A DNA stretch of 64,000 nt from Sphingobium herbicidovorans (GTDB lineage: Bacteria; Pseudomonadota; Alphaproteobacteria; Sphingomonadales; Sphingomonadaceae), in NCBI RefSeq assembly GCF_002080435.1, contig NZ_CP020538.1, positions 620,001-684,000 on the forward strand, in the 5' to 3' direction. Positions 44,252 through 59,622 of this stretch are shown in pieces. The translations under genes were made by a program, and so were the position numbers. Positions within the stretch are counted from its first letter, which is position 1. Each line of letters begins with the position of its first letter. The notes beneath the pieces are model-generated. The model searched no databases. It was given only the letters and a program-made list of their open reading frames with translations, and had not been told where the DNA came from.

Positions 44252-44917
44252 ATGCGTCTGCTGATCGTCGAAGATGAACCGAGCCTCGGGCAACAGCTCC
44301 GCAATACACTGGAAGGTGCAGGCTATGCCGTGGACCTCGCGACGGATGGCGAGGACGGGCACTTTCTGGGCACGACCGAAAGCTATGACGCGGTCGTGCT
44401 GGACCTGGGCCTCCCCACCATTGACGGCCTGACGGTGCTGGACCGCTGGCGCAAGGAAGGGCGGGCGTTTCCAGTGCTGGTGTTGACAGCGCGCGACAGC
44501 TGGTCGGACAAGGTCGCGGGTCTCGACGCGGGCGCGGACGATTATCTGGCAAAGCCGTTCCAGAGCGAGGAACTGATCGCTCGCCTGCGCGCGCTTATCC
44601 GGCGGGCGTCGGGCAATGCGTCCAGCGAACTGACTGCCGGGGACGTGCGGCTGGACACGCGATCGGGCAAGGTCACGCTGAAAGGCGAGCCGGTGAAGCT
44701 GACCGCGCAGGAATATAAGCTGCTGTCCTATCTGCTTCATCACAAGGGCAAGGTGGTCAGCCGTACCGAACTGATCGAACATATTTACGATCAGGATTTC
44801 GACCGCGATTCCAACACGATCGAAGTGTTCGTAACGCGCATCCGCAAAAAGCTGGGCGCGGATGTCATCACGACGATCCGTGGCCTGGGCTACAGCCTGG
44901 ATGAGCCGGGCCGCTGA
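44252..44917 (+). CDS. OmpR/PhoB-family response regulator
   Basis: 221 aa. Receiver domain with acidic pocket VEDEPS, phosphoacceptor Asp51 (VVLDLGLPTIDGL), switch Thr in VLTARDSW and Lys in LAKPFQSEEL; then a winged helix with the OmpR pattern QEYKLLSYLLHHKGKVVSRTELIEHIYDQDFDRDSNTIEVFVTRIRKKLG. Resembles the PhoP/FeuP/QseB branch. Pairs with the kinase that starts 47 nt downstream. Targets unknown; the upstream PepSY-like gene is an obvious candidate. Confidence 0.93.
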   Translation: MRLLIVEDEPSLGQQLRNTLEGAGYAVDLATDGEDGHFLGTTESYDAVVLDLGLPTIDGLTVLDRWRKEGRAFPVLVLTARDSWSDKVAGLDAGADDYLAKPFQSEELIARLRALIRRASGNASSELTAGDVRLDTRSGKVTLKGEPVKLTAQEYKLLSYLLHHKGKVVSRTELIEHIYDQDFDRDSNTIEVFVTRIRKKLGADVITTIRGLGYSLDEPGR

Positions 44918-44964
44918 CCCCCCTCACTCTCCGATCAAAACGACCGGGGTCGGCATAAAGCGCC

Positions 44965-46335
44965 ATGGCCAGCCAATCGGAACCTATCGCGCCTCCCCCG
45001 GTCCATTCCACAGGGTCGCTCAGCCGCCGCATGATCGGCATCGCGGCGCTGTGGATCAGCGTCCTGTTGCTGGGTGGCGGGCTGGCGCTTGACCGGGTTC
45101 TGTCGGCGGCCATCACCCGCAATTTCGACGATGGCCTGAATTATGTGCTGACGGCTATGATCGCATCCGCCGAAATCGGCCCGGACGGCGAAGTGCTGTT
45201 CAACCGGCCGCTTGCCGACCAGCGCTTTCTGGAACCCAATAGCGGGCTTTATTACCAGATCAGTGCAAAGGGGCATGAGGACTGGCGGTCGCGATCCTTG
45301 TGGGACCGCGCGCTCAAGGTGCTGCCCGAGCATGAAGACCGTGGTTTCCATGTCTATGACAGCAAGCAGTTTCCTGGCGAGGACCTGCGGATCATGGAGA
45401 GGACGATCGTCCTGCCCGGCTCCAGGACCCGTTGGCTGTTCATGGTCGCTGCCGCCCGCGCCGGGTTGGACGATCAAATCCGCGCGTTGCGATCCACCCT
45501 GACGCAGAGCTTCGCGCTGCTGGCGCTGGGTCTGATCGTGCTGACGACGCTCCAGACGCTCTACGGTCTGCGGCCGCTTCGCCGGGTGCGCAGGGAAATC
45601 GTGCACATGCGCACCGGCGACAAAAACCGTGTGACCGAACCGATGCCGGCCGAAGTGCTGCCCATGGTAGAGGAACTGAACGCCCTGCTCGCCCATAATG
45701 AGCGGCAGGCCGAAGAGGCGCGCACCCATGCCGGCAATCTCGCTCACGCGTTGAAGACCCCACTGACGGTGATCATGAACGCCGCGACCGCGCAGGCCGA
45801 CGATCTGGGCGAAACAGTGATCCGCGAAGCCACCACCATGCGTCGTCAGGTCGATCATCATCTCGCCCGCGCGCGCGCCGTCGGGCGACGCGGTGCGGCG
45901 CAGAGCCGGGCAGAGGTATGGGCCAGCCTGCAGGCTGTGGAGCGCGCGGTTCAGCGCCTCTATCCCGAAGCGCGCATCGACATGGATGGCGACAAGGGGG
46001 CCGCCGTCCGCGTCGAACGGCAGGATCTGGACGAAATGCTCGGAAACCTCGTTGAAAATGCCGCCAAATATGGCGGGGGCAGCGTGTTCGCGACGGTAAG
46101 CCGTGCCGGCGACATGGTGGAAATCATGGTCGAGGACGATGGCGCGGGCATCCCAAAGGAAGAACGCACGCGTATCTTCGATCGCGGCGTCCGGCTCGAT
46201 TCGGGAAAGCCCGGCACAGGTCTTGGTCTTGCAATCGTGCGCGACGTCGCTGAAATCTACGGCGGCACGGTCGCCATGGAGGAAAGCGAAGATCTGGGCG
46301 GCCTGCTGGTGCGGCTGCGCCTTCCTGCGGTCTGA
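44965..46335 (+). CDS. Membrane sensor histidine kinase
   Basis: 456 aa, partner of the preceding OmpR-type regulator. Two transmembrane helices (about residues 30-50 and 175-195) bracket a periplasmic sensor domain of about 120 residues. A short HAMP-like linker (GLRPLRRVRREIVHMRTGDKNRV) leads to a HisKA domain with His261 in NLAHALKTPLTV and a HATPase domain with NLVENAAKYG, EDDGAGIP and GTGLGLAIV. Overall similar to PhoQ/FeuQ-type sensors. Its stop overlaps the start of the DUF454 gene (TGATG). Confidence 0.92.
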   Translation: MASQSEPIAPPPVHSTGSLSRRMIGIAALWISVLLLGGGLALDRVLSAAITRNFDDGLNYVLTAMIASAEIGPDGEVLFNRPLADQRFLEPNSGLYYQISAKGHEDWRSRSLWDRALKVLPEHEDRGFHVYDSKQFPGEDLRIMERTIVLPGSRTRWLFMVAAARAGLDDQIRALRSTLTQSFALLALGLIVLTTLQTLYGLRPLRRVRREIVHMRTGDKNRVTEPMPAEVLPMVEELNALLAHNERQAEEARTHAGNLAHALKTPLTVIMNAATAQADDLGETVIREATTMRRQVDHHLARARAVGRRGAAQSRAEVWASLQAVERAVQRLYPEARIDMDGDKGAAVRVERQDLDEMLGNLVENAAKYGGGSVFATVSRAGDMVEIMVEDDGAGIPKEERTRIFDRGVRLDSGKPGTGLGLAIVRDVAEIYGGTVAMEESEDLGGLLVRLRLPAV

Positions 46336-55067: not shown

Positions 55068-56030
55068 TCAGAACCAGAAACGCACGCCCATGACGAGGCT
55101 GGCGGCCGACGCACGCTTGCCTTCCGCGCGAGCAAAGCGCGCCGTATCGCCCAGCTTGCGTTCCCAGTTGACCCCCACATAGGGCGCGAATTCGCGCGCG
55201 AATTCATAGCGCAGTCGCAGCCCCAATTCGATGTCGGACACGCCCGACCCGATCCCGAGTTCCGGCACATCCTGCGCGGCGATATTCACTTCGGCGGCCG
55301 GTTGCAGGATCAGCCGCTGGGTGATCCGCTGGTCATAGCTTGCCTCCAGCCGCAGATGCGCGTCCCCCTTGTGGGAGAGGAAAGCCTGCGCGCCCACTTC
55401 GAACCAATAGGGTGCAAGCCCGTCTACACCAATCACCGCATAGGTTCGGTCCGGACCAGCACCGAAATCGTGCCGCACGCCCGCTTCCAGGTTGAACCAC
55501 GGATCGATCGCGCGGCTGTAGAGCGCCTGCGCCTCCGCGCTTTCCAGGCCGCCGCCCACCTCTCCCTCGCCCTCGGTCTTGAACGCGAAGCGGTTTATGT
55601 CGCCGCCGATCCACCCTTCGCCCTCCCAATGGTAGCCGTCGCGTCCCTTGCCCATCCGATATTCCAACCGGTCGAGCATCAACTGCGAAAAGGCCATGCC
55701 ACCGCTTTCCTTGAGCATCGCCGCACGCGCGCGGGCCATGTCGGCCGGGCTGTAAAATGCTTCGGCGGCGTGATCGGTGGGGACAGGCGGCGCATCGCCC
55801 TTGGGGATGGCGTCATCTGTTGACGACATGGCGTGCCCGGCATGGGGATTATCATCCGAGGGCGCTTCAACAGGGGCCGGATGGGCCGAATGATCCTGCG
55901 GGGGCGGCTGCTGCTGCTCGGGCGCGCCATGATCCATCTGGCTGTGGTCCATCTGGCCATGGTCCATTTCCTGCGCCAGCGCGGGGGAGGATGCGGATGC
56001 CAGCATAAGGGCTGCGGCAATCATCCTCAT
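55068..56030 (-). CDS. copB: Copper resistance outer-membrane protein CopB
   Basis: 320 aa. Sec signal peptide (cleavage near ALAQ), then a His/Met-rich segment with three tandem copies of the element MDHxQ/MDHG (MDHGQMDHSQMDHG) that should bind copper, a disordered His-rich linker (PHAGHAMSS), and a C-terminal beta-barrel domain with alternating strands ending in the aromatic VRFWF expected for Bam substrates. In plasmid-type copABCD systems CopB sits in the outer membrane. Its ATG overlaps the copA stop by 4 nt. Confidence 0.93.
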   Translation of the reverse strand: MRMIAAALMLASASSPALAQEMDHGQMDHSQMDHGAPEQQQPPPQDHSAHPAPVEAPSDDNPHAGHAMSSTDDAIPKGDAPPVPTDHAAEAFYSPADMARARAAMLKESGGMAFSQLMLDRLEYRMGKGRDGYHWEGEGWIGGDINRFAFKTEGEGEVGGGLESAEAQALYSRAIDPWFNLEAGVRHDFGAGPDRTYAVIGVDGLAPYWFEVGAQAFLSHKGDAHLRLEASYDQRITQRLILQPAAEVNIAAQDVPELGIGSGVSDIELGLRLRYEFAREFAPYVGVNWERKLGDTARFARAEGKRASAASLVMGVRFWF

Positions 56031-57781
56031 ACCGCCGCTCCCTCATGCCGGACGGTCACGACACGCATCATGCCCGTATGCATGTGCATCAGCATGTGAC
56101 AGTGAAAGGCCCAGTCGCCCAACGCGTCGGCGGTTAGATCGAAACTCACCTTGCCGCCCGGCAGCACATTCACCGTGTGCTTGAGCGGATTATGCTCCCC
56201 AGCACCCGTCACCAGTTCAAAGAAATGGCCGTGCAAGTGGATCGGATGCGGCATCATCGTGTCGTTGATCAGGTTCACGCGCACCCGCTCCATATGGCGG
56301 AAGGCGATGGGATCGGCTCCGTCGGACAGCTTTACCCCATCGAACGACCACATATAGCGTTCCATGTTCGCGGTCAGGTGGATGTCCAGCGTCCGCGTGG
56401 GCGTGCGCCTGTCCTTGTTCGGCTCCAGCGATTTGAGGTCAGCATAGGTCAGCACCCGGTGCTCGACATTTTCCAGCCCGGTTGGCCGGTCAGCCGTCCG
56501 ATCAGCGGGCATGGGGGAAAGGGTGGCGACGCCCGGCCCCATCTTCACCTGCGGCGCGACCGACTTGTCGCGCATCTTCATCGAATGGCCGGACATGCTG
56601 TCATTGGCGGGCTGGCTGAGGTCTATGACGCCCCCCTGCCCCATGTCCATCCCGGACATGTCCATCCCCATGTCCTTCATGCCCAGTAGCGGCCGATCCC
56701 GCAGGGCGGGCACCTCCGCCGCCATGCCGACGCGCGGCGCCAGCGTCGCCCGCACCAGCCCGGACCGGTCGATCGCTTCGGCGATCAAGCCATAGGCTTT
56801 CGCCTCCGTCGGCTGCACCACCACATCGTAGGTTTCGGCGATGCCGATCTGGAACTCGTCGGTTTCGACCGGCTGGACATGCTGGCCGTCGCACTGCACC
56901 ACCGTCATCGGCAGCCCCGGCAGGCGCACGTTGAAATTCGTCATGGCCGACGCGTTGATGATCCGCAGCCGCACCCGTTCGCCCGGCGTGAACAGCCCGG
57001 TCCAATTCTCCGCCGTGCCATGTCCGTTGACGAGGAAGCTGTAGGTCGATCCCGTGACGTCCGAAATGTCGGTCGGGTCCATGCGCATCGCGCCCCATTC
57101 CAGCCGCTCCTTGGCGCTCTGGTCCTTACCCGCAAGCAGCCCGGCCAGCGTCTGCTTCTGCATGTTGAAATAGCCGCCCATCTGCTTGAGGCGCTTGAGC
57201 AGCACATGCGGATGAATGGGGCTCCAATCGGACAGCACGATCACATGCTCGCGCTCGCTGCGCACCGGGTCGGCTCCGGCGGGGTCAATAACGATAGGCC
57301 CATAATGGCCCATCGCCTCCTGCATCCCCGAATGGCTATGATACCAGTAAGTGCCCGATTGCCGGATCGGAAATGCGTAGGTGAAGGTTTCGCCCGGCCG
57401 GATGCCGGGGAAGCTGACGCCGGGAACGCCATCCATCTGGAATGGCACGATCAAACCATGCCAGTGGATCGACGTGTCTTCCTTAAGCCGGTTGGTTACG
57501 GACAGGCGGACATTCTGTCCTTCCTTCAACCTGATGAGCGGGGCAGGCAAGGCGCCGTTGATCGTCACCGCATGGGCCGACCGCCCGCCTGTGGAAAAAT
57601 GGCTTTCGGCGATGGTCAGCGCGATATCCTCACCGCTCAGCACACCCGGCGCTGGCGCAAGTCCGGCAGTCCCGTTCTTCGCCCAGGTCGGAAGCGCGCG
57701 GCTCAAGGCCAGCGCACCGCCGAAATGGCCCAACCCACGGATCAAGCTGCGGCGATCAACATCATGTAAGGGGAAGGGCAT
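56027..57781 (-). CDS. copA: Copper resistance multicopper oxidase CopA (periplasmic, Tat-exported)
   Basis: 584 aa. Twin-arginine signal DRRSLIRGLGHFGGALAL (Arg10-Arg11). Four copper-binding motifs of multicopper oxidases are intact: IHWHGLIVP, YWYHSHSGMQ, HPIHLHGHFFEL and HCHMLMHMHTGMM (the type 1 site, Met as axial ligand). Between domains lies a Met-rich stretch (MKDMGMDMSGMDMGQGG) typical of CopA/PcoA. It oxidises Cu(I) and sequesters copper in the periplasm. Start at 57781; it follows the sigma-factor gene by 33 nt and overlaps copB. Confidence 0.95.
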   Translation of the reverse strand: MPFPLHDVDRRSLIRGLGHFGGALALSRALPTWAKNGTAGLAPAPGVLSGEDIALTIAESHFSTGGRSAHAVTINGALPAPLIRLKEGQNVRLSVTNRLKEDTSIHWHGLIVPFQMDGVPGVSFPGIRPGETFTYAFPIRQSGTYWYHSHSGMQEAMGHYGPIVIDPAGADPVRSEREHVIVLSDWSPIHPHVLLKRLKQMGGYFNMQKQTLAGLLAGKDQSAKERLEWGAMRMDPTDISDVTGSTYSFLVNGHGTAENWTGLFTPGERVRLRIINASAMTNFNVRLPGLPMTVVQCDGQHVQPVETDEFQIGIAETYDVVVQPTEAKAYGLIAEAIDRSGLVRATLAPRVGMAAEVPALRDRPLLGMKDMGMDMSGMDMGQGGVIDLSQPANDSMSGHSMKMRDKSVAPQVKMGPGVATLSPMPADRTADRPTGLENVEHRVLTYADLKSLEPNKDRRTPTRTLDIHLTANMERYMWSFDGVKLSDGADPIAFRHMERVRVNLINDTMMPHPIHLHGHFFELVTGAGEHNPLKHTVNVLPGGKVSFDLTADALGDWAFHCHMLMHMHTGMMRVVTVRHEGAAV

Positions 57782-57814
57782 GGGATGCTCTGCAAAAAAG
57801 GGAGTCGTTCAGAT

Positions 57815-58396
57815 TTATACGCGTGTGGAGCCGTCACCCCTTAAAAATTCGGCCAGCTTTTGGCGGGCTCGATAAAGACGGGTCTCCACCGCCTTCTCGC
57901 TCAATCCCAGCGTCTGCGCCACCTCCGCCTGGCTCATCCCTTCGATCGTCCGCAACAGCAGCACATCCTTGAGATTGGCTGGCAAAGCAGCAATCGCCGC
58001 ATGGATTCGCGCGAGCAGCGCCTGCGATTGCATCGCCTCCTCGGGCGTCGGCCCGTTATCGGCGACAGTCGCCGCTTCCTCCATCGGCCGTGCGAAGGTG
58101 AAAAAACGCCGCACCGCCCGCCGCCGCGCCCAGTCATGGCATTTGTTGATCGCGATCCGGGCGATCCATAGCCGGAAAGGCCGCGCCCCGTCATAGCGCG
58201 CCAGCGCGGCGAAAGCCGAAATGAACGTCTCCTGCGTGATATCAAGGGCCTCGGTCGCGTCGCCCGCATGTCCACGCGCCAGCCTGTAAACGCCATCACG
58301 ATGCCGCCGCATCAATTCGCCATAAGCGGCCTGCTGCCCCGCCAAGGCCAGCTCCGCCAGCTCGGCATCACCTCGGTCGGCGAGTGAAGGCCTCAC
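57815..58396 (-). CDS. ECF sigma factor of a CnrH-like module
   Basis: 193 aa with region 2 (LMRRHRDGVYRLARGHAGDATEALDITQETFISAFAALARYD, here the DITQETF motif) and region 4 helix-turn-helix (IEGMSQAEVAQTLGLSEKAVETRLYRARQKL). No regulatory C-terminal domain. Its position, third after a small anti-sigma-like membrane protein and a periplasmic metal sensor-like protein, with 4-nt overlap to the latter, is the CnrY-CnrX-CnrH order of Cupriavidus. It should direct transcription of copA/copB and probably its own operon. The promoter it recognises cannot be identified with confidence. Confidence 0.88.
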   Translation of the reverse strand: MRPSLADRGDAELAELALAGQQAAYGELMRRHRDGVYRLARGHAGDATEALDITQETFISAFAALARYDGARPFRLWIARIAINKCHDWARRRAVRRFFTFARPMEEAATVADNGPTPEEAMQSQALLARIHAAIAALPANLKDVLLLRTIEGMSQAEVAQTLGLSEKAVETRLYRARQKLAEFLRGDGSTRV

Positions 58397-58833
58397 CGCG
58401 CAGGTTCGGTCAGGACCTTGACGACGGCGGCGTCGAACTGTGCCGCCTGATCGGGCCGCAAAACCGCGCGCATTGCAAATATGTGCTTCAGCGTCTCTTT
58501 CTGCAGCATTCCCATGACATGGTGCGTTCGATCGACGGCCTCGCTCACCTTCGGCCCATAGCCATGTTCGGCAGCTATAGCCTGCGCCAGCCGCGCGTTA
58601 TCCGCGCGCATCTCGGCCTCCATCGCCGCCCGCCGTCTGGCGAAATCCATCTCCAGCGCATGAATGCGCCGCTCCTGCTCGTCATCCAGCTTCAGCTTTT
58701 GGTGGATCAGGGCATGCACCTCGCTCTCGACCCGCGGTTCAGGCGCGATCCATATGCGCGCGACCAGCACTGCCGCCAGCGCAGCCGCAAAGGCGACCAG
58801 CGCGACCAGCCCATATCGGCCCGCCCCCTTCAT
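58393..58833 (-). CDS. Periplasmic metal-sensing protein of the CnrX/ZraP type
   Basis: 146 aa: an N-terminal membrane anchor (LVALVAFAAALAAVLVA) followed by an all-helical periplasmic domain. The CnrX metal-ligand pattern appears retained: His40-x3-His44 (VHALIH), Glu61 seventeen residues on (HALE), and His105-x3-Met109 (HHVMGM), matching CnrX His42, His46, Glu63, His119 and Met123 in order and local spacing, with the helical hairpin about 12 residues shorter. In Cupriavidus metal binding by CnrX releases CnrH from CnrY. The metal sensed here is not known; neighbouring genes suggest copper. Confidence 0.8.
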   Translation of the reverse strand: MKGAGRYGLVALVAFAAALAAVLVARIWIAPEPRVESEVHALIHQKLKLDDEQERRIHALEMDFARRRAAMEAEMRADNARLAQAIAAEHGYGPKVSEAVDRTHHVMGMLQKETLKHIFAMRAVLRPDQAAQFDAAVVKVLTEPAR

Positions 58834-58836
58834 CCC

Positions 58837-59103
58837 CTATTGTCCCAATAGTTGCGAAGGCGCGTAATCGGACATGCCGATCACGACCGGCGCGGACGCC
58901 GCCTGTGCCGGAGCGCCGGGCACGACACTGCCGGCCCAGCCGATGCCGATCGCCACCATCCCCGCCAGCGCCAGGCTGCGCCGCGCGACGGCCCGCTCAC
59001 GGCGAACCGCCGCGCCGGCCATCACCACCTCTTCCATCGCCTCAAGGCGCGGATCGGCGGGCAGCGCACGAACCTGGCTCAGCAATTGGTCGAGGTCGCT
59101 CAT
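58837..59103 (-). CDS. CnrY-like membrane anti-sigma factor
   Basis: 88 aa: a cytoplasmic N-terminal part of about 45 residues (MSDLDQLLSQVRALPADPRLEAMEEVVMAG, then a basic RRERAVARR), one transmembrane helix (LALAGMVAIGIGWAGSVV) and a short periplasmic tail. Size and layout match CnrY, whose N-terminus wraps the sigma factor; direct sequence similarity is weak, so the call leans on gene order and topology. ATG 59103 is chosen because the frame upstream (to 59310) is antisense to copC and has no such N-terminus. First gene of the Y-X-H-copA-copB transcript. Confidence 0.68.
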   Translation of the reverse strand: MSDLDQLLSQVRALPADPRLEAMEEVVMAGAAVRRERAVARRSLALAGMVAIGIGWAGSVVPGAPAQAASAPVVIGMSDYAPSQLLGQ

Positions 59104-59244
59104 CACTTGCACTCCCGTTACATCCTCCAGGATACGCGTTGCAGGCGCCGATCCTTCATGCAAAAGTTTATGCCGGTTCGTCGAGGGGTGACAAAATCCG
59201 TTGCGTACTATCTCGTAACCGCAATCCGATTGGAGATCATTCCC

Positions 59245-59622
59245 ATGCGTCGCATCCTGTTCACCGCCGCCATCGCGCTCGCTGCCTTGCCCTCCGTGGC
59301 GATGGCGCATCCCAAGCTGCTCTCATCCACGCCGGCGGCCAACGCCACCGTCGCCAAGCCGACCAGGCTGACCCTGACCTTCTCCGAAAAGCTGCTTGCG
59401 CCGACCAGCGGTGTTGATCTGACCATGACCGGCATGCCCGGCATGGCCAACCACGCGCCGATGCCGATCAAGGGCTTCAAGACCGCTGTCGAAGGCGATG
59501 GCAAGACACTGGCCGTCACCCTACCTCGGGCGCTTCCGGCGGGCAGCTACGACCTTAACTGGCACGTCGTTAGCGCCGACCAGCACAAGATCACGGGCAA
59601 ATACAGCTTCTCGGTAAAGTAA
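59245..59622 (+). CDS. copC: Periplasmic copper-binding protein CopC
   Basis: 125 aa with a Sec signal peptide ending at AMAHP, so the mature protein starts with His1, a copper ligand. The fold signature STPAANATVAKPTRLTLTFSEKL and the C-terminal DLNWHVVSADQHKITGKYSFSV, with its DxH-type ligands, are characteristic. A Met cluster (MTGMPGMANHAPMP) gives a second, Cu(I)-type site. Divergent from the anti-sigma gene, and GGAG lies ten bases before the ATG. No copD follows. Confidence 0.93.
   Translation: MRRILFTAAIALAALPSVAMAHPKLLSSTPAANATVAKPTRLTLTFSEKLLAPTSGVDLTMTGMPGMANHAPMPIKGFKTAVEGDGKTLAVTLPRALPAGSYDLNWHVVSADQHKITGKYSFSVK

Follow-up and report, generated by a model that had tools for sequence, protein, structure and literature searches.

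Three small genes of Sphingobium herbicidovorans, here called Y, X and H, form a regulatory module of the CnrYXH kind that appears to be wired to the copper resistance genes copA, copB and copC around it. They lie in a stretch of 64,000 nucleotides (contig NZ_CP020538.1, positions 620,001 to 684,000; hereafter the window, in whose coordinates all unprefixed positions are given) and quite probably represent a sister lineage of CnrYXH devoted to copper. Gene content, gene order and promoter-like sequence elements give good support to the wiring of the module to copper genes. A preliminary description of this DNA had proposed a CnrYXH-type module with a nickel/cobalt-type sensor acting on copper genes; homology, a comparison of 152 loci and conserved promoter cores sustain the connection to copper genes, whereas they do not establish the label given to the sensor; X falls in the sister lineage.

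The minus strand carries, in this order, Y (58837..59103), X (58393..58833), H (57815..58396), copA (56027..57781) and copB (55068..56030), with copC (59245..59622) facing the other way on the plus strand and overlaps of 4 nucleotides (nt) between H and X and between copB and copA. Open reading frames (ORFs) and family matches bear out the ORFs, coordinates, order, overlaps and divergent copC first described. The product of copA is a periplasmic multicopper oxidase (TIGR01480, E 2.5e-242, over the cut-off), that of copB the outer-membrane copper resistance protein B (PF05275, E 5e-93) and that of copC a periplasmic copper-binding protein (NF033814, over the cut-off). The succession of anti-sigma factor, periplasmic sensor and extracytoplasmic function (ECF) sigma factor is that of a CnrYXH-type module, with copAB and copC standing where a cnrCBA-type resistance-nodulation-division (RND) efflux system would be the target. 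The NCBI annotation already labels parts of such loci, namely a "periplasmic heavy metal sensor" and a "copper resistance system multicopper oxidase".

H is a CnrH-type ECF sigma factor of 193 aa, read from a GTG start and matching PF04542 and PF08281. Its best match in the PDB is CnrH (E 1.3e-33), with which it shares 41% identity across 191 columns; it ends about 12 residues past region 4, and the Cys-rich C-terminal extension that marks the CorE type is absent from its sequence. X (146 aa, PF13801) is a membrane-anchored periplasmic sensor with the CnrX/NccX fold; among solved proteins, NccX (PDB phmmer E 3.4e-17) and CnrX (4.1e-17) come closest to it. Y, an ORF of 88 aa, matched no Pfam family and gave no BLASTP hit against CnrY, and its assignment as a CnrY-type anti-sigma factor comes from profiles: one built from 149 Y proteins hits one built from three CnrY-type proteins with Prob 88.7 and a score of 33.7, against scores of at most 13.0 in column-shuffled controls (n = 20). 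Judged from the sequence by eye, Y has an N-in/C-out topology with a single membrane span.

For comparison, 173 distinct X proteins were reduced to 152 representatives below 95% identity by a crude ungapped comparison, 149 of them of the copper type. The material includes 80 regions fetched from the listed family matches (mostly best-scoring, 20 from further down, one being the genome's own second copy) and 80 named loci, the best 80 of 584 confirmed, which were found with a copper-clade peptide pattern and are biased to that clade. A simple picking rule finds a Y-like ORF upstream of X in 152/152 representatives. The C-terminal tail APSxLL of Y is conserved in 123/152, the C-terminus of the window protein being encoded at 58837-58866, and this tail is perhaps the part that touches X. 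CnrY itself ends in a similar stretch, SPFGLL.

The metal site of CnrX is conserved in X. Ungapped sequence alignment places H40, H44, E61, H117 and M121 of X opposite H42, H46, E63, H119 and M123 of CnrX, the metal ligands of the latter. The superposition of the X model on CnrX (2y3d) succeeds, pairing model residues 37-143 with chain residues 39-145 (107 residues) at a constant offset of 2, so that X presents an N-terminal anchor and the hooked hairpin of CnrX with equivalents of all five ligands. The preliminary description had correctly matched His40, His44 and Glu61, but named His105 and Met109 as the remaining ligands and considered the hairpin about 12 residues shorter than that of CnrX; both details arose from misalignment and were dropped, since the sequence and structural alignments run through the hairpin without a gap. 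The codons, all on the minus strand, lie at 58714..58716 (His40), 58702..58704 (His44), 58651..58653 (Glu61), 58483..58485 (His117) and 58471..58473 (Met121), and the residues are kept in 80/80 copies, or 79/80 for Met121. Four distant copper-linked copies (L230, L231, L278, L280) have Asp instead of H40, and in six rows of the pooled X alignment M121 gives way to Leu, Val or Ile.

Two further residues, His104 (codon 58522..58524, minus strand; His in 80/80) and Met107 (58513..58515, minus strand; Met in 80/80), distinguish the copper clade, since the CnrX type carries Glu and Ala in these columns. The His/Met pair (HM) is present in all 149 copper-type representatives, in 204/204 alignment rows (duplicates included) outside five cnr-linked rows, and in 120/120 proteins that are the best 120 of 954 from an X profile search, whereas Glu/Ala (EA) occupies the three cnr-linked representatives and 63/63 aligned CnrX-like proteins. 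Because H40 and M121 vary in some copies, H104 and M107 are more strictly kept than two of the classical ligands. Six columns in all are at least 90% fixed in both types yet different (L47/V, Q53/E, H104/E, M107/A, Q129/H and F133/Y), the last two corresponding to CnrX H131 and Y135, which are Gln and Phe in the copper type. With so few columns separating the types, the change at H104/M107 is a focused one, which speaks against the notion that it merely reflects overall divergence between clades, though it is still a single event on the tree.

With columns 104 and 107 left out, a tree of 102 X proteins separates the HM proteins (75) from the EA proteins (27) by a single branch with a Shimodaira-Hasegawa-like approximate likelihood ratio test (SH-aLRT) support of 100. 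One genome from another family (G983), the sole same-genome contrast encountered, holds both types, HM beside copAB (L238, L239) and EA beside cnrCBA (L241). When an EA-type X was sought in the window's own family with CnrX as the query, identity reached at most 43% among the matches listed from 298 genomes, and CnrX-like proteins labelled Novosphingobium occur in the protein search (P0035, P0060). Weak PF13801-like matches outside the module (L198-L202, L217-L222) were tried as outgroups and discarded as too distant to establish the ancestral state.

Predicted CnrH-type promoters stand at three places in the window: GAAGG-N15-GCGTA before Y (59133..59157, minus strand, exact match), GAGGG-N15-GCGTA before copC (59183..59207, plus strand, exact match) and AAGGG-N15-GCGTATA before copA (57818..57842, minus strand, one mismatch), the last overlapping the 3' end of H. 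At the level of sequence, then, predicted promoters of the CnrH type precede both Y and the first target gene. Upstream of Y, AGGG-N16-CGTA occurs in 120/139 non-redundant regions against 0.4 expected in shuffles (two-block counting, the shuffles being first-order Markov samples), and its reverse complement TACG-N16-CCCT in 101 of the same regions. Counted over all 152 loci, A[AG]GG-N16-CGTA lies within 160 nt before Y in 129, and in 110 it points the other way, often toward copC, within the same distance of Y. The core precedes copA at 113/119 loci, compared with 0/119 on the other strand and 10/1530 in random 205-nt windows of the same loci. The consensus reads tGAGGGnt-N12-tGCGTAt, with spacer letters that are not conserved. 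As one-mismatch motif hits across the 64 kb (8) equal chance (7.1), the copA site of the window rests on its position and its conservation elsewhere. On pMOL28, the plasmid of Cupriavidus metallidurans that carries cnrYXH, GGGG-N16-CGTA (in the form GGGG-N16-CGTATA) lies upstream of cnrY and cnrC, ending 32 nt from the former and 33 nt from the latter; these positions agree with the start sites that PMC9045368 attributes to CnrH and maps 23 and 24 bp ahead of the two genes.

The association with copper genes extends far beyond the window. Among the 152 representatives, copA is the next gene downstream in the same direction in 119; other copper genes lie within 6 kb in 25, cnrC is linked in three (pMOL28 plus two others) and none of these genes is near in five. 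Copper genes are thereby close to 144/149 copper-type representatives. Loci under 7 kb account for 21 of the 152, and the 131 longer ones divide into 107 with copA next, 18 with other copper genes, three with cnr and three with none, copC or copD being divergent within 1.5 kb at 84/131. As annotated, copD-copC faces Y-X-H-copA-copB in Sphingobium sp. RAC03, Sphingobium sp. SYK-6 and Sphingomonas sanxanigenens, and on plasmids of Caulobacter sp. FWC26 and Asticcacaulis excentricus the module sits amid copper genes with copA not directly behind it. PepSY-type membrane genes and TonB receptor-like genes, named by eye, adjoin YXH copies that have no adjacent copA (L059 and L084 in one genome, G297, and L064), and might form a part of the regulon concerned with uptake of copper or iron.

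In the window's family, an X match (E 1e-3 or better) is found in 127/298 sampled genomes, a tally that takes in one weak match (G138, E 2e-4), and CopA (TIGR01480, E 1e-150) in 215/298. Both occur together in 120 genomes, X alone in seven, CopA alone in 95 and neither in 76 (Fisher P 4e-15, with species that are not independent). The X profile matches 10/385 genomes at the level of the class and 23/398 at that of the phylum, both figures taking in weak matches as well as genomes of the window's own family, and the CnrX query matches 41/99 genomes in one further family of the class. Relatives of X are carried by 74 of 72,556 plasmid records, chiefly of Sphingobium, Sphingomonas and Novosphingobium, 35 of which are typed as conjugative.

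The genome of S. herbicidovorans itself holds a second YXH-copAB copy (C2:665853-675321, L033), about 60% identical to the first, in which CueR, a copper P-type ATPase (CuATPase), copD and copC face Y-X-H-copA-copB; this gene order recurs on sphingomonad plasmids such as pSLPG of SYK-6. CueR is found once over the cut-off in the genome, at C2:665865, beside this second copy (5 kb). The earlier remark that neither CopRS nor CueR is in sight holds for the window, where the CueR model matches nothing and the one kinase considered (44965-46335) scores under the CopS/SilS cut-off; in the whole genome, no kinase reaches the CopS/SilS/CztS cut-off. That kinase belongs to a response regulator and histidine kinase pair (44252-46335, plus strand), about 9 kb from copB, which looks PhoPQ/FeuPQ-like by eye.

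Exact promoter copies elsewhere point to a candidate regulon. The strict pattern TGAGGG-N15-GCGTAT has 51 matches in 13 genomes of the genus, with at least one in 13/13, against two for the reversed pattern. The 30 strict sites with loci precede copA in 12 cases, the YXH operon in eight and copC in one (21/30 in total); the remainder precede DUF411-like genes (three), cytochrome c-like genes (two), pyridine-nucleotide oxidoreductase genes (two) and others (two, one before a PAS/histidine-kinase gene and one without assignment). These gene kinds were assigned by Pfam on one example each and by sequence likeness for the rest. The cytochrome c-like and oxidoreductase genes behind exact promoter copies (L322 and L336; L338 and L342) are possible members of the regulon. 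In S. herbicidovorans, a DUF411 gene with a CGCC motif has a sigma-type promoter at C2:703504-703530 (L295, L330), with a third CopA gene some 2 kb distant, at C2:705755.

Taken with what the cnr homologues suggest, these features fit a simple circuit. Y would tether H, the sigma factor, to the inner membrane, and X, anchored beside Y, would monitor the periplasm; as copper rises, X would bind it and Y would release H. RNA polymerase carrying H could then start at the GAGGG-N15-GCGTA promoters of Y (a feedback), of copA-copB and of copC, so that their products would increase together: the periplasmic copper oxidase, the copper protein of the outer membrane and the carrier of copper. The binding of Y to H, the reading of these promoters by H, the binding of a metal by X and the identity of that metal as copper are all inferred from homology and context. 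The likely role of the module is thus to signal copper stress at the cell surface. The metal of X may be copper, nickel or both, copper being favoured because of the targets, the neighbouring genes and the gain of His and Met. H104 and M107 are the proposed cause of a shift of a CnrX-type sensor toward copper, whether by forming a second site or by altering the shape of the first. A more far-reaching version, held tentatively and at somewhat less than even probability, is that Sphingomonadaceae and Caulobacteraceae have turned a CnrX-type sensor into a two-site periplasmic copper sensor, in which a new His-xx-Met site for Cu(I) joins the old five-ligand site. Acting through an ECF sigma factor, this sensor would run a copper regulon (YXH, copAB, copC, DUF411 and others) in place of the CopRS or CusRS control found in other bacteria.

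Several observations weigh against a dedicated copper sensor, and two of them suit the view of the preliminary description, that X is a nickel/cobalt or broad divalent metal sensor working through the five CnrX ligands, with the copper genes as part of a general metal defence. All five ligands are kept, and in Sphingobium sp. ba1 copA, copB and copC were raised in 10 mM nickel (PMC5557971). The authors call a nickel involvement of these cop genes previously unreported; the paper describes the ba1 copAB alongside dehydrogenase genes, and its text does not contain the word "sigma". Such a dose of nickel is very high and may act indirectly, and a nickel/cobalt sensor fits poorly with the copper genes near 144 of the copper-type modules and with the invariant H104/M107 and altered CnrX H131/Y135 that set the clade apart, which makes this explanation rather unlikely, though a real contender. 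H104 and M107 pose a difficulty of their own, since they lie on model helix 94-124, 10-13 residues ahead of H117, and helix geometry would put them roughly 15-20 Å from it, probably too distant to join the CnrX site of the same chain; they would instead form a second site, a dimer contact or an indirect effect. X might instead sense envelope damage or misfolding, as the related Spy/CpxP/ZraP-type proteins do, with copper acting through damage only and H104 and M107 being structural; retention of the CnrX ligands, the best matches to CnrX/NccX by both sequence and structure, and the oddity of an invariant His and Met for pure packing make that very improbable.

The links to copper genes also have exceptions. 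As the HM/EA difference maps to one branch, the agreement between signature and gene context amounts to one evolutionary event, and the connection of HM with copper genes is a single independent observation. CopA occurs without X in 95/215 genomes, so copA must often be under other regulation. Five of the 149 copper-type representatives lack the queried copper genes (L145, L097 and L059 on 12-kb loci; L281 and L283 on loci of only 3.4 kb), of which L059 shares a contig region with L084, which has copAB. In L145 and L059 an RND pump gene 25-32% identical to CnrA lies 0.5-0.7 kb away, and CnrB/CnrC-like genes are in reach at 5/204 HM rows, with L145 added by CnrA alone; copper genes are therefore not the sole possible neighbours. 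In the genome of S. herbicidovorans, GARGG-N15-GCGTA has 14 exact matches against 24 for the reversed control and is not enriched, so most matches are noise, although four stand at the two YXH-cop loci and one before the DUF411 gene (C2:703505). If the sigma factor ran its own operon only, copper genes might simply hitch-hike with the module on plasmids, in keeping with the many plasmid-borne copies; yet the promoter core recurs before copA and opposite Y, with spacers that are not conserved, and hitch-hiking is scarcely credible. A copper-dedicated sister lineage of CnrYXH remains the reading we prefer.

Several known systems clarify the place of this lineage. The CopRS, CusRS and PcoRS two-component systems relay a periplasmic copper signal to copABCD through a histidine kinase, whereas the window module uses a sigma/anti-sigma relay. 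With CnrYXH (pMOL28) and NccYXH it shares the Y-X-H order and the fold and five ligands of X, and with CnrYXH also a CnrH-type sigma factor, a CnrY-like protein and GGG-N16-CGTA promoters before Y and the first resistance gene. Unlike CnrYXH, which drives cnrCBAT, it would drive copAB and copC; its X has H104/M107 in place of Glu/Ala and Gln/Phe in place of CnrX H131/Y135, and an extra divergent promoter points toward copC. The circuit is a variant of the CnrYXH kind and not a cnr determinant. Searches of open-licence full-text papers brought up no account in which a CnrX-type sensor controls copA.

Copper-responsive ECF sigma factors have been described in other bacteria. CorE of Myxococcus xanthus (ECF44/ECF238) controls a multicopper oxidase and detects the metal directly, by means of a C-terminal extension rich in Cys that H does not have, without an anti-sigma factor (PMC10141476). 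SigAb-AabA-AabB of Acinetobacter baumannii comprises a copper-induced ECF sigma factor and a small anti-sigma factor modelled like CnrY on CnrH, and is described as having three direct targets only, with metal genes affected indirectly (PMC12153292). The available sections of both accounts describe no CnrX-type sensor, whereas the window module has X and predicted sites immediately upstream of copA and of copC. Induction of pcoAB by copper in Caulobacter crescentus was confined to stalked cells in one medium (PMC8224329).

Metal-selective control of a sigma factor has a textbook example in CnrX, and a large sister family with the same site and promoter type but two fixed substitutions offers a natural experiment in how the metal of a sensor can change. 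The module is also a candidate copper regulator for many sphingomonads, with loci on both chromosomes and plasmids, and its readable promoter motif may provide a route to the whole regulon.

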